Assembly: GCF_001457035.1 (NCBI RefSeq)
Contig: NZ_KQ758617.1
Span: 620,001 to 684,000 of the forward strand
Direction: 5' to 3'
DNA: 64,000 bases
Origin: Fictibacillus enclensis
Lineage (GTDB): Bacteria > Bacillota > Bacilli > Bacillales > Fictibacillaceae
Each line of letters starts with the position of its first letter. The first letter of the stretch is position 1. The position numbers and the translations under genes were made by a program. Positions 6,165 to 63,054 of this stretch are shown in pieces. The notes beneath the pieces are model-generated. The model did not search any database. It saw only the letters and a list, made by a program, of their open reading frames with translations, and had not been told where the DNA came from.

Positions 6165-6920
6165 ATGGAAAATAAACGACCGGTGATTGGTATCACCTGT
6201 TCCACGAAGGATATTGGGGGTCTTGAAACGGCCTATCTTCATTACAGTTATACGACATCAGTAATGAATGCCGGCGGAGTGCCTGTTATCTTGCCAATGG
6301 CAGATAAAGAGATAGCCAGGGAATGGGCAGCGCTGTGCGATGGTATTCTGCTCAGCGGTGGCGAGGATATGGATCCCCAGCAAATCGGTGCCGAACCTCA
6401 TCCAAATCTCGGCAAGGTCATTCCGGAAAGAGACAAGACAGAAATGGATCTCATTGAGTTTGCCAAGGAGCAGAAGATTCCGATTTTCGCCATTTGCCGG
6501 GGAATCCAGGTGCTTAATGGTGCACTTGGCGGTACTCTGTACCAGGACGTGTATGACGAAATGGAAAAGGTCATTAAACATTATCAGGATGGTGCAAGGG
6601 ACGCTGCGACCCACTCCATCTCGATCGAGGAAGGCTCATTGCTGGCTGAAATTATCGGAAGCAACGAAACTTCGGTCAACAGCTTTCATCATGGAGCTGT
6701 CCAAGAAGTGGCACCTGGCATGAAAGTTACCGCCAAGGCACCGGATGGTATCATTGAAGCGATTGAAAGTGAAGACTTTAATAAAAATTGGATCCTTGCT
6801 GTTCAGTGGCATCCCGAGGATATGACCGAGGTGAGCGAAGAAATGCACCGATTGTTTACCTATTTTGTTAAAGCGGCAGAGGAACGTGCAGGGAAGAAAG
6901 AAACCGTATCCTCTTCATAG
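6165..6920 (+). CDS. Gamma-glutamyl-gamma-aminobutyrate hydrolase-type class I amidotransferase
   Basis: A 251-residue peptidase C26 protein. The nucleophile Cys lies in FAICRGIQVLN (about residue 110), the nucleophile-elbow glycine loop LLSGGEDMDPQQIG is ahead of it, and the catalytic His-Glu are in VQWHPEDM near residue 210. Family members such as PuuD cleave gamma-glutamyl amides in polyamine breakdown, but no other polyamine gene is nearby, so the substrate is open. ATG follows GGGAG. It is a single-gene unit ending in a strong two-way terminator. Confidence 0.88.
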   Translation: MENKRPVIGITCSTKDIGGLETAYLHYSYTTSVMNAGGVPVILPMADKEIAREWAALCDGILLSGGEDMDPQQIGAEPHPNLGKVIPERDKTEMDLIEFAKEQKIPIFAICRGIQVLNGALGGTLYQDVYDEMEKVIKHYQDGARDAATHSISIEEGSLLAEIIGSNETSVNSFHHGAVQEVAPGMKVTAKAPDGIIEAIESEDFNKNWILAVQWHPEDMTEVSEEMHRLFTYFVKAAEERAGKKETVSSS

Positions 6921-6928
6921 AAATCATC

Positions 6929-6966
6929 AAAAAAGCGGTGGATTACTGAAAATCCACCGCTTTTTT
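6929..6966. terminator. Bidirectional terminator between convergent genes
   Basis: AAAAAAGCGGTGGATT and AATCCACCGCTTTTTT form a perfect 16-bp stem around a six-base loop. It serves the amidotransferase and the convergent DUF2188 gene. Confidence 0.94.
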
Positions 6967-7239
6967 CTAATTTTCATAGTTATGCTGTTCTTCAATTCGT
7001 CCATGTTCGTTATGGATGATGGCCATGGTGCCGGCTTCTTCCGCCATGCGGTTGGCTTCTTTTACCGCTTCGGATTTGGAGCCGGTTGTGTGTGCTGGCT
7101 CGTCTTCTCCTTCTTTCTTTACAGCCCAGCCTTCTTGTTCATGAGGAACCACATGGAAGTGGGCTTTATCTGTGCCTGCGCGGTCCTCGAAATATTGGTC
7201 GCGCTCTTCATTTCCTAATCGATTGTTATTTTGTGCCAT
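6967..7239 (-). CDS. DUF2188 domain protein
   Basis: A 90-residue soluble protein with the DUF2188 pattern in residues 27-85: HFHVVPHEQEGWAVKKEGE, then a segment with SKSEAVKEANRMAEEAGT and a final IHNEHGRIEEQHNYEN. The family is common in bacteria as small proteins of unknown function. ATG follows GGAGGGT. It is monocistronic. Nothing in the sequence tells its role. Confidence 0.88.
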   Translation of the reverse strand: MAQNNNRLGNEERDQYFEDRAGTDKAHFHVVPHEQEGWAVKKEGEDEPAHTTGSKSEAVKEANRMAEEAGTMAIIHNEHGRIEEQHNYEN

Positions 7240-7314
7240 GATAAACCCTCCCGTTAGATGAATTAATCAATGTACTATACTCTACCCGCATTTTTAGATT
7301 TAAACACAGGTTGT

Positions 7315-7788
7315 TTAACTTAGTTCTTCAACGTCCCAGGTGTTTTCAATGGCTACAGCTCCCTTAAGGGTTTGGGCCACGGGGCAGTTCCGTTCAAAAA
7401 CGGAGAGAGCCCGAATCGCTGCTTCTTTTTTGCCCTGGGGAACTTTCAGGTTAAAGTGGCATGAAATTCTTGTGATTTTCAAAACACCCTCCGGCGCCTC
7501 AATCATGCCTTGGACGTTAGCGGATAATGTGTCAGGAGATGCTGGTATGTGACGCGCATCCAGCGCGCCTGCTAATGTACCGGTCAGTCAGCCACCGGCA
7601 GCGGCAACAATATGGTCGAGGGTGGACGGGTATTCCACCTCAGGATCCACACCGTAAAATTGTTTAACTCCGCCATGTACGCCATAAAAAACAGGATCAG
7701 GAAATTCTCCGATATACGCTCTGCGGACCTTGTTTTTTGTGTCATCCTGAAAGATGGTAATGCTGGTTAACGCAATAGGATCACTCAT
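7315..7788 (-). CDS. OsmC-family protein, candidate selenoprotein (in-frame TGA at codon 67)
   Basis: One frame of 157 residues plus stop is interrupted only by TGA at 7588-7590. The upstream part (ITIFQDDTKNKVRRAYIGEF... TLDHIVAAAGG) and downstream part (LTGTLAGALDARHIPASP... RALSVFERNCPVAQTLKG) join seamlessly into an OsmC/Ohr-type protein. In OsmC proteins the residue after AAxGG or AALGA is the peroxidatic Cys, exactly where TGA stands; the second conserved Cys is present at about residue 135. OsmC-like selenoproteins are known, and a hairpin of bacterial SECIS type starts 18 bases after the TGA. So I read it as selenocysteine, giving a selenoperoxidase acting on organic hydroperoxides. 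The alternative is a Cys-to-stop nonsense mutation. It is cotranscribed with the upstream lipid kinase (46-base gap). Confidence 0.72.
7551..7569 (-). promoter_or_regulatory. SECIS-like hairpin downstream of the OsmC TGA codon
   Basis: On the coding strand GGCGCGC, loop TGGAT, GCGCGTC: seven base pairs including one G-U, with G at loop positions 2 and 3. The loop begins 25 bases after the TGA, inside the 16-37 window I recall for bacterial SECIS elements. It encodes the conserved GALDAR residues, so part of the pairing could come from protein constraint. Confidence 0.62.
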
Positions 7789-7834
7789 TATTTACCGCCT
7801 CCTTATCTTCCTTAATATCCGTGCGGTTCGTGTT

Positions 7835-8737
7835 TCAAACCTTTTCCTCTTCGTTGGGCGGAACAAAAACAGAAATGTGGCGGGAGAGGACAGAGGCGGT
7901 AAAAGGCAAGGGCTCTCCTTCATCTCCGTCAATATTGACAGCCATCGTTTCGGAAGAGGATACATCAAGGGATGAAGACTGTATGTATGTCACATCGGAA
8001 TGCTCTTGCAGTTCCCCTTTGAATAATTTTGGAAAAAGCTTCAGGGTACCGGGTAGTGAAATATTTTTTATGATATATACGTGAAGTCTGCCATCATCCA
8101 CCTCAGCCTGGGGAGCAAGCTTTTCAAAGCCACCGACAGAGTTGGTCATCGCGGCGACCAAAAGGTAGGCATTTCCTTCCCAAGTTCCCTCGTCGTGGGA
8201 AATCTTTAATGAAAACGGCGTTTTATTCGCCAGTGCTTTCATGCCTTCCACAAAATAAGCAAGCGGACCAAGTTTTGTTTTTTGGTCAGTGCTCACATTA
8301 TACGAGGCTTCAGCAATCGCTCCCACAGCGAGGACATTCATAAAGTATTGATGGTTAATTTTGCCGATGTCGGCTTTTCTGAATTTTTCATAAGGAAGAA
8401 TTCTTATGGCCTCCTCGGAATCAAGCGGAATTTGAAGAGCTCTCGCAAAGTCATTGACCGTTCCAAGGGGAATGATGCCAAAATGTGGCCGATGTTCCTG
8501 CTCGGCCAGGCCATTTACCGCTTCATTTACCGTTCCATCTCCGCCCATTGATAGTACAGTATCATAATGTTGCTCACAGGCATTCTTGGCGAATGCAGCA
8601 GCGTCGCCTTCCTTTTTAGTTTCACAGACCAGAACTTCATCATGAAACGTCTGAAGAACCCTTTCAGCTTCTGGAAGGAGCTCCATGGCTTGTTCTTTTC
8701 CTGAAGAAGGATTTACGATGATCATGGCTTTTTTCAA
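7835..8737 (-). CDS. Diacylglycerol/lipid kinase (YegS/BmrU type)
   Basis: 300 residues. The N-terminal kinase catalytic domain starts MIIVNPSSGKEQA and carries the nucleotide-binding GGDGTVNEAVNGL loop (about residue 65) and IIPLGTVNDFARAL (about 90-103). The C-terminal beta-sandwich carries the FFMN-like YFMNVLAVGA segment. Such enzymes phosphorylate diacylglycerol or related lipids at the membrane in phospholipid turnover. The start is TTG 8737 behind AAAGGGGG. It is the first gene of an operon with the OsmC gene. Confidence 0.92.
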   Translation of the reverse strand: MKKAMIIVNPSSGKEQAMELLPEAERVLQTFHDEVLVCETKKEGDAAAFAKNACEQHYDTVLSMGGDGTVNEAVNGLAEQEHRPHFGIIPLGTVNDFARALQIPLDSEEAIRILPYEKFRKADIGKINHQYFMNVLAVGAIAEASYNVSTDQKTKLGPLAYFVEGMKALANKTPFSLKISHDEGTWEGNAYLLVAAMTNSVGGFEKLAPQAEVDDGRLHVYIIKNISLPGTLKLFPKLFKGELQEHSDVTYIQSSSLDVSSSETMAVNIDGDEGEPLPFTASVLSRHISVFVPPNEEEKV

Positions 8738-9055
8738 TGGATTTAATACCCCCTTTTAGTGATCCGTCTTCTGAAAAATACCCGTTTTAGGACGGTTTCT
8801 AACCGTTTGGCTAAAATAGTCGCGGGGGTCAACTGGTTACCCGCCTTAAATAGGGAAATACTCGCTATAATCTAACATTTACCAGCCATTTCACGATTAT
8901 GGTAAACTGCAGCAAAAAAAGCGGATGCAAAATATACAATGGCGTTCTTAATCCTGCCATTCATTACCATTTCATAATGAATGATTTTATATTGTAATCT
9001 TCATCCGGCCAACATAAAATAGGAACATACGTTTGTTTTGATGGAGGGAAGCCAA
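8738..9055. other. Intergenic region between lipid kinase and a small protein gene
   Basis: No gene seen in this 318-base gap. It must hold the leftward promoter of the kinase operon and the rightward promoter of the small gene. An inverted repeat, ATTCATTA and TAATGAAT around eight bases, lies at 8959-8982, ahead of the small gene. Confidence 0.5.
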
Positions 9056-9265
9056 ATGGAAGAGGAATTAAGGTATTTTTTCATGTATAAAGAACGCATG
9101 GCAATGACCAATGATGTTATCATCCAATTCATGGATTTTAAGGGGAAGCGCCTTGTACGGGCGATGGTACAGGATCTGAATACAACCACCAACAAAAAGT
9201 TAAAAGAAGATGCCCGGACTCAATGGGAGCAGATCAAAAAGGCAGATACACTTCAGCAAAAATAA
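9056..9265 (+). CDS. Small hypothetical protein (69 residues)
   Basis: Not recognised. The start is ATG 9056 behind GGAGGG at 9043-9048; an in-frame ATG further up would overlap that site. The product is charged and soluble with no signal peptide: MEEELRYFFMYKERM, then DVIIQFMDFKGKRLVRAMVQDL, and a lysine-rich helical end. Codon use looks like that of its neighbours. A plausible real gene by its ribosome site, with no clue to function. Confidence 0.62.
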   Translation: MEEELRYFFMYKERMAMTNDVIIQFMDFKGKRLVRAMVQDLNTTTNKKLKEDARTQWEQIKKADTLQQK

Positions 9266-62598: not shown

Positions 62599-63054
62599 GT
62601 GGCACAGCATTCGTTTCACTTAAAAGCAAACTGGCCCGGTCTCCGCGATGATGTAGGCGAGATCGAGGCCGGAAATTTAAAAACAAAGATATCCATCCCG
62701 CCGGAAATGGAGGGTCCCGGTGTAGGAACCAATCCGGATGAAATGCTCCTTGGAGCTGCGGCAACCTGTTATATTATTACGCTCGCTGCCATGATGGAGC
62801 GCAGCCAGCTTGAAAAAGAAAGTTTGACCATGGAATCAGAAGGAATTGTTGAGGTGACCAAAGGAGTTATTACCTATAAAAAAATTATTCACCGCCCTCT
62901 TATTGTGTTAAAGGAAGATGCCTCACAAAAGGACAAGGGGCTGGCGCAACGTCTTGCCGAAAAAGCAGAAACATCCTGCATGATCACGAGGGCCATCCAG
63001 GGTAACGTGGAAGTCAGCCTGGAAGCAAAGGTAATCACAGGGCAAAATCAATAA
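62599..63054 (+). CDS. OsmC-family peroxiredoxin (cysteine form, SACOL1771 type)
   Basis: 151 residues. Start GTG behind TAAGGAGGAGG. The peroxidatic Cys is in MLLGAAATCYIITLAAMM (about residue 53) and the second Cys in AETSCMITRAIQGN (about 125). The N terminus (FHLKANWPGLRDDVGEI) is that of the SACOL1771-like subfamily. It reduces organic hydroperoxides in the cytosol using thiols. It is a useful contrast to the TGA-containing OsmC gene at 7315-7788. Single gene with terminator. Confidence 0.9.
   Translation: MAQHSFHLKANWPGLRDDVGEIEAGNLKTKISIPPEMEGPGVGTNPDEMLLGAAATCYIITLAAMMERSQLEKESLTMESEGIVEVTKGVITYKKIIHRPLIVLKEDASQKDKGLAQRLAEKAETSCMITRAIQGNVEVSLEAKVITGQNQ

Follow-up and report, generated by a model that had tools for sequence, protein, structure and literature searches.

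The window analysed here, a stretch of 64,000 nucleotides from the genome of Fictibacillus enclensis (C1:620001-684000; genus Fictibacillus, 4.5 Mb in 10 contigs), carries on its minus strand a gene for an OsmC-type protein interrupted by an in-frame TGA. We propose, with a probability of about 96% and on computational grounds, that this gene makes a selenoprotein by insertion of selenocysteine (Sec) at the UGA of codon 67. The UGA is conserved among homologous loci and followed by a hairpin under RNA-level selection, the genome contains the Sec machinery, the protein is under selection before as well as after the UGA, and its predicted fold is that of OsmC. An initial annotation had put forward a candidate Sec-containing OsmC protein at this place, and UGA conservation, hairpin and Sec machinery now support that proposal, Sec insertion itself being what we infer.

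The gene starts with an ATG at 7788-7786 and ends with a TAA at 7317-7315, and its frame is open across 157 residues with the TGA of codon 67 (7590-7588) as sole interruption, in line with the claim that both halves of the protein are undamaged. The coordinates first given are exact, with the minus strand left unstated; a plus-strand reading of 7315-7788 was rejected, since it contains several stops. The protein scores 47.8 bits against the Pfam OsmC model (PF02566, gathering threshold 27.5), and its predicted structure (predicted local distance difference test, pLDDT, 94.3) displays the OsmC fold; score and fold together place it in PF02566. Codon 67 is aligned with the first conserved Cys of the solved structures of OsmC (1ukk) and YhfA (1ml8), which agrees with the early statement that the TGA exactly replaces the conserved OsmC Cys, and Cys135 is aligned with the second conserved Cys of 1ukk.

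Homologues were collected from 60 relatives and by a search of genome contigs, giving 68 loci with a close homologue, which reduce to 64 different gene sequences, of which 63 are intact. All 68 loci have TGA at codon 67. The peptide patterns used exclude residue 67 and the genome search reads through stops; a close Cys version is therefore unlikely to have been missed for that reason. Among the 63 aligned members Cys135 is invariant, as is Gly70, which completes a U67-x-x-G70 (UxxG) motif (63/63 each), and Arg22 is nearly so. The closest named homologues are those of Fictibacillus fluitans (94% identity) and F. solisalsi (92%), identical gene sequences are present in two genomes of the window's own genus, and the other OsmC proteins of the relatives stand at 21-30% identity. 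In a class-wide sample the family was found in 14 of 398 genomes (cut-off E value 1e-15), with TGA in 15/15 loci, some of which repeat earlier ones. In a phylum-wide sample 6 of 398 genomes match (E value 1e-8), and the new loci again have TGA (5/5), with identity falling to 44%. The class to which the genome of this most remote locus belongs has matches in 8 of 154 genomes: three have one TGA (116-143 bits), and the remaining five are Cys-type, contain no stop and score 36-40 bits, the level of a generic OsmC. TGA is present in both L131 and L132, which belong to this class, and indeed at codon 67 in every one of the 78 distinct, intact rows of the final collection. A quick tree was built from these rows, which are not independent species (some genomes duplicate others), and from 25 Cys-type OsmC rows that are weak-similarity matches from the same searches; in it the Sec rows form one clade on a long stem (support 97, starred).

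After an 18-nt spacer the UGA is followed by the hairpin GGCGCGC-UGGAU-GCGCGUC (7569-7551), with a stem of 7 bp and a UGGAU loop, as the initial annotation had described. One of the pairs is G-U, and 25 nt separate the UGA from the loop. According to a 2026 review, a bacterial Sec insertion sequence (bSECIS) has a loop of 3-9 nt with a G in its first two positions, a stem of 4-16 bp, 16-37 nt between UGA and loop, and a minimum free energy of at most -7.5 kcal/mol (PMC13188914). The hairpin lies within all of these published limits, the 48 nt from the UGA folding at -14.5 kcal/mol, and its pattern together with its TGA occurs only once in the genome. Moreover, the hairpin codons are frozen at their synonymous sites. 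Codons 75, 76 and 78 are GCG, CTG and GCG in 63/63 members each, compared with 108/750 Ala codons for GCG and 76/424 Leu codons for CTG outside codons 67-81 (14-18%), and third-base entropy is lower at codons 74-79 than in any other of the 152 windows (0.50 against a median of 1.56). Thus the hairpin is under RNA-level selection, and its description as SECIS-like is justified. At the synonymous third positions of codons 74 and 79 the bases are C/T in 54, T/C in 13, C/C in 11 and T/T in none of the 78 rows; there is therefore at most one wobble across two neighbouring pairs. Fisher's test on the 63 members gives 2e-8 for this covariation, a value inflated by relatedness.

The part of the protein after the TGA is translated and under purifying selection, because the ratio of non-synonymous to synonymous substitution rates (dN/dS) in seven pairs is low there (0.02-0.23 from codon 82 onward, against 0.01-0.10 before the TGA).

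Absence of selA, selB, selC or selD had been named as grounds for giving up the proposal; a search detected all four above their cut-offs, within about 5 kb. The cluster (C1:1301230-1306351) comprises tRNA-Sec (56.7 bits by covariance model, gathering threshold 47, anticodon loop CUUCAAA), selB (359.6 bits), selD (407.5 bits) and selA (549.7 bits). ARAGORN reported no tRNA on L001, though the covariance model detects tRNA-Sec there. Furthermore, selD (L021:7822-8913, minus strand) contains a single TGA in frame, at codon 29 as counted from the listed start, with the hairpin GGUCC-AGA-GGACC after it, and is therefore probably a selenoprotein gene too, served by the same machinery. No Sec-type formate dehydrogenase was found in the genome, as none of its 8 formate-dehydrogenase-like matches has an internal stop. 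Two Sec genes, selD and the OsmC-type gene, have thus been identified, a count that does not extend to a survey of the remaining selenoproteome.

The initial annotation regarded selenoproteins as rare in Bacillaceae; on the contrary, Sec use is common among the relatives of this genome, because selA scores above its curated cut-off in 46/60 of them, the genome itself included. In 37 of the 60, selA is above the cut-off and there is no close copy of the Sec OsmC; these genomes presumably use Sec in other proteins. In the class-wide sample, 14/14 genomes with the family fall among the 86/398 with selA (Fisher 2e-10), an association that is strong but gives no true probability, as related genomes are counted separately and the family matches cluster by genus.

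In the mechanism that we propose, SelB carrying Sec-tRNA-Sec and guanosine triphosphate would bind the hairpin just 3' of the UGA of codon 67, and Sec would be inserted; if selenium is lacking, the chain would end at residue 66. The product would be a 157-residue protein of OsmC fold with Sec67 and Cys135, the selenium counterpart of the redox pair in OsmC. In OsmC and Ohr proteins two Cys residues reduce peroxides and are re-reduced by lipoyl systems, as described in PMC8945050. The Sec67 selenolate would most likely attack a hydroperoxide or another electrophile, after which a selenenyl-sulphide would form with Cys135 and a dithiol such as dihydrolipoamide could re-reduce it. An organic peroxide has an even chance of being the substrate. 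Residue 67 had been called peroxidatic; by homology it would be, with the reservation that the Glu found ten residues before the Cys in 1ukk, which we take to be the catalytic Glu, is not conserved in the alignment and is replaced by Leu57 (invariant, 63/63).

To an alternative we give a little less than even odds, namely that Sec is indeed inserted and the protein is no peroxidase but a redox protein akin to YhfA that acts on a different substrate. The AAGG before the Cys or Sec and an acidic residue at -9 are as in 1ml8, 1ukk having the Glu at -10 in addition. YhfA is described in PMC8945050 as being without the Arg and Glu of OsmC/Ohr and as having an open role. Nor does any conserved neighbour suggest peroxide stress, the commonest neighbouring family occurring at only 8/64 loci (open reading frames of at least 80 residues, flanks of about 1.5-3 kb). 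However, the predicted fold is about as close to OsmC and Ohr as it is to YhfA, fold comparison does not separate these groups for the window protein, and both conserved Cys positions are retained.

It is very improbable that the UGA is decoded in some other way, through a changed genetic code or by loose readthrough with Cys or Trp. The inserted residue cannot be named from sequence alone, but in 18/63 members the gene itself ends with TGA, so UGA keeps its stop function there, the one marked by the hairpin being the exception; a changed code was rejected for this reason. The conserved SECIS-type hairpin and the presence of selA in every class-sample genome having the family likewise argue for Sec. 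A lone in-frame stop usually means a pseudogene or a sequencing error, here a TGC or TGT that was mutated in a dead gene or misread, but we give this next to no chance, as the TGA common to 68/68 loci excludes an error at one base and both the low dN/dS after the TGA and the frozen hairpin codons speak for a living gene.

Several observations nevertheless count against Sec insertion at codon 67. The covariation of codons 74 and 79 comes down to 2-4 changes that are independent in the tree, too few for a test, and a sign test is not significant. In L131, a divergent row, the stem is mismatched at one point, and the 42 nt following its UGA fold otherwise. No model matched in an Rfam scan of the window at gathering thresholds. 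Of the 60 nearest genomes 9 have the family, and all 9 have selA, but so do 46/60 in total, and the association is not significant (Fisher 0.10), which leaves the class-wide sample as the informative one. Broken copies exist in two other genomes (L109 and L123), which would also suit a decaying gene. Finally, selenium in the protein is something that we infer only.

As to the copies themselves, that of Cytobacillus oceanisediminis CGMCC 1.10115 (L109:3193-3225) lacks an 11-nt piece of its hairpin, flanked by short GGCGCG repeats, which shifts the frame and is either a true loss or an assembly error, and that at L123:1498-1961 keeps TGA and hairpin with the frame broken near residue 93. Copies labelled Chryseobacterium sp. 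ISL-80 (L066) and Pseudomonas sp. ISL-84 (L079) group with Cytobacillus and, judged from this gene only, probably come from mislabelled or mixed assemblies. A copy at 56% identity that has both the TGA and the hairpin lies on a 3.2-kb contig of a Nitrospinota metagenome-assembled genome (L108:2705-3166) and may reflect transfer, a wider family or misbinning. Some genomes have two Sec OsmC copies (L025/L048, L099/L103 in Marinithermofilum abyssi, and L127/L130). Among viral contigs there were 29 pattern matches, none of them a relative, and plasmids gave no match.

The features of the gene are collected in Table 1. Its neighbours on the same strand encode a YegS-type lipid kinase (7835-8737) and a DUF2188 protein (6967-7239), and a promoter scan of 6900-9100 was uninformative (4 sites, 3.6 expected). 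The Cys-type OsmC noted earlier at 62599 is present at 62599-63054 on the plus strand (TIGR03563, 223.5 bits, cut-off 166.15).

Table 1. Coordinates within the window of the OsmC-type gene and its proposed elements.
Feature	Position	Strand	Basis or remark
OsmC-type selenoprotein coding sequence (predicted)	7315..7788	-	157 residues with TGA = Sec; Pfam OsmC match; predicted fold
In-frame TGA, codon 67 (putative Sec)	7588..7590	-	aligns with first conserved Cys of OsmC proteins
Spacer from TGA to hairpin, 18 nt	7570..7587	-	sequence
SECIS-type hairpin GGCGCGC-TGGAT-GCGCGTC	7551..7569	-	folding, synonymous-site freezing, bSECIS limits
Codon of Cys135 (C-P motif), second conserved Cys and likely the resolving residue	7384..7386	-	conservation and 1ukk alignment
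AAGGAGG, Shine-Dalgarno-like, 9 nt 5' of ATG	7798..7804	-	sequence

OsmC-like selenoproteins have been predicted since 2005, when three Sargasso Sea sequences with a UxxT motif were described (PMC1088965); a Global Ocean Sampling (GOS) table gives a count of five, also UxxT (PMC2398784). The 2026 review counts 119 selenoprotein families or subfamilies, sets up a separate subfamily where one domain occurs with a differing Sec motif, and has one PF02566 entry in its table, with UxxT (PMC13188914). The marine UxxT group and the OsmC_like_Se family NF041052, which may or may not be one group, likewise combine an OsmC domain, a predicted Sec at the redox Cys and a downstream hairpin. In contrast to the marine group, the group of the window has UxxG, which sets it outside the UxxT definition, and comes from Bacillota genomes rather than marine metagenomes. 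Against NF041052 the window protein reaches 19.9 bits (cut-off 95), the best E value among the 63 members being 9.1e-07. With the OsmC and Ohr hydroperoxide reductases (TIGR03562, TIGR03561) and the SACOL1771 family (TIGR03563) it has in common the fold and the two redox positions, but it has Sec for the first Cys, Leu at -10 where 1ukk has Glu, and scores far below the cut-offs of two of these models (26.6 bits against 85.8 for TIGR03562, 22.1 against 166.15 for TIGR03563). YhfA of E. coli (1ml8) has a similar motif with Cys instead of Sec, and the sequence match to it is weak (E value 0.024). The genome's own SelD also combines an in-frame UGA with a hairpin, but protein family and hairpin are different.

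The UxxG group is unreported in the accessible literature linking OsmC, Bacillaceae/Bacillales or Fictibacillus with selenoproteins or selenocysteine, subscription papers lying mostly outside that search. Since its motif is UxxG and not UxxT, it falls below the NF041052 cut-off and the review catalogue has no entry for it, the group, whose UGA and hairpin are shared by relatives in many spore-formers, would seem to be a branch, so far uncatalogued, of the known OsmC-like selenoproteins. Annotation without a model for it would split or discard the gene, and a redox protein of many Bacillota would be overlooked. Whether the group is an obligate-Sec OsmC subfamily across several Bacillota groups, lacking a Cys orthologue unlike many selenoprotein families, and perhaps a main reason for keeping the Sec machinery where formate-dehydrogenase-like proteins have no in-frame stop, could in our view go either way. 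If so, a Sec-only OsmC subfamily would join the prokaryotic selenoproteome, and culturable spore-formers would become available for studying Sec use, together with a short, sharply defined SECIS for tests of SelB recognition.
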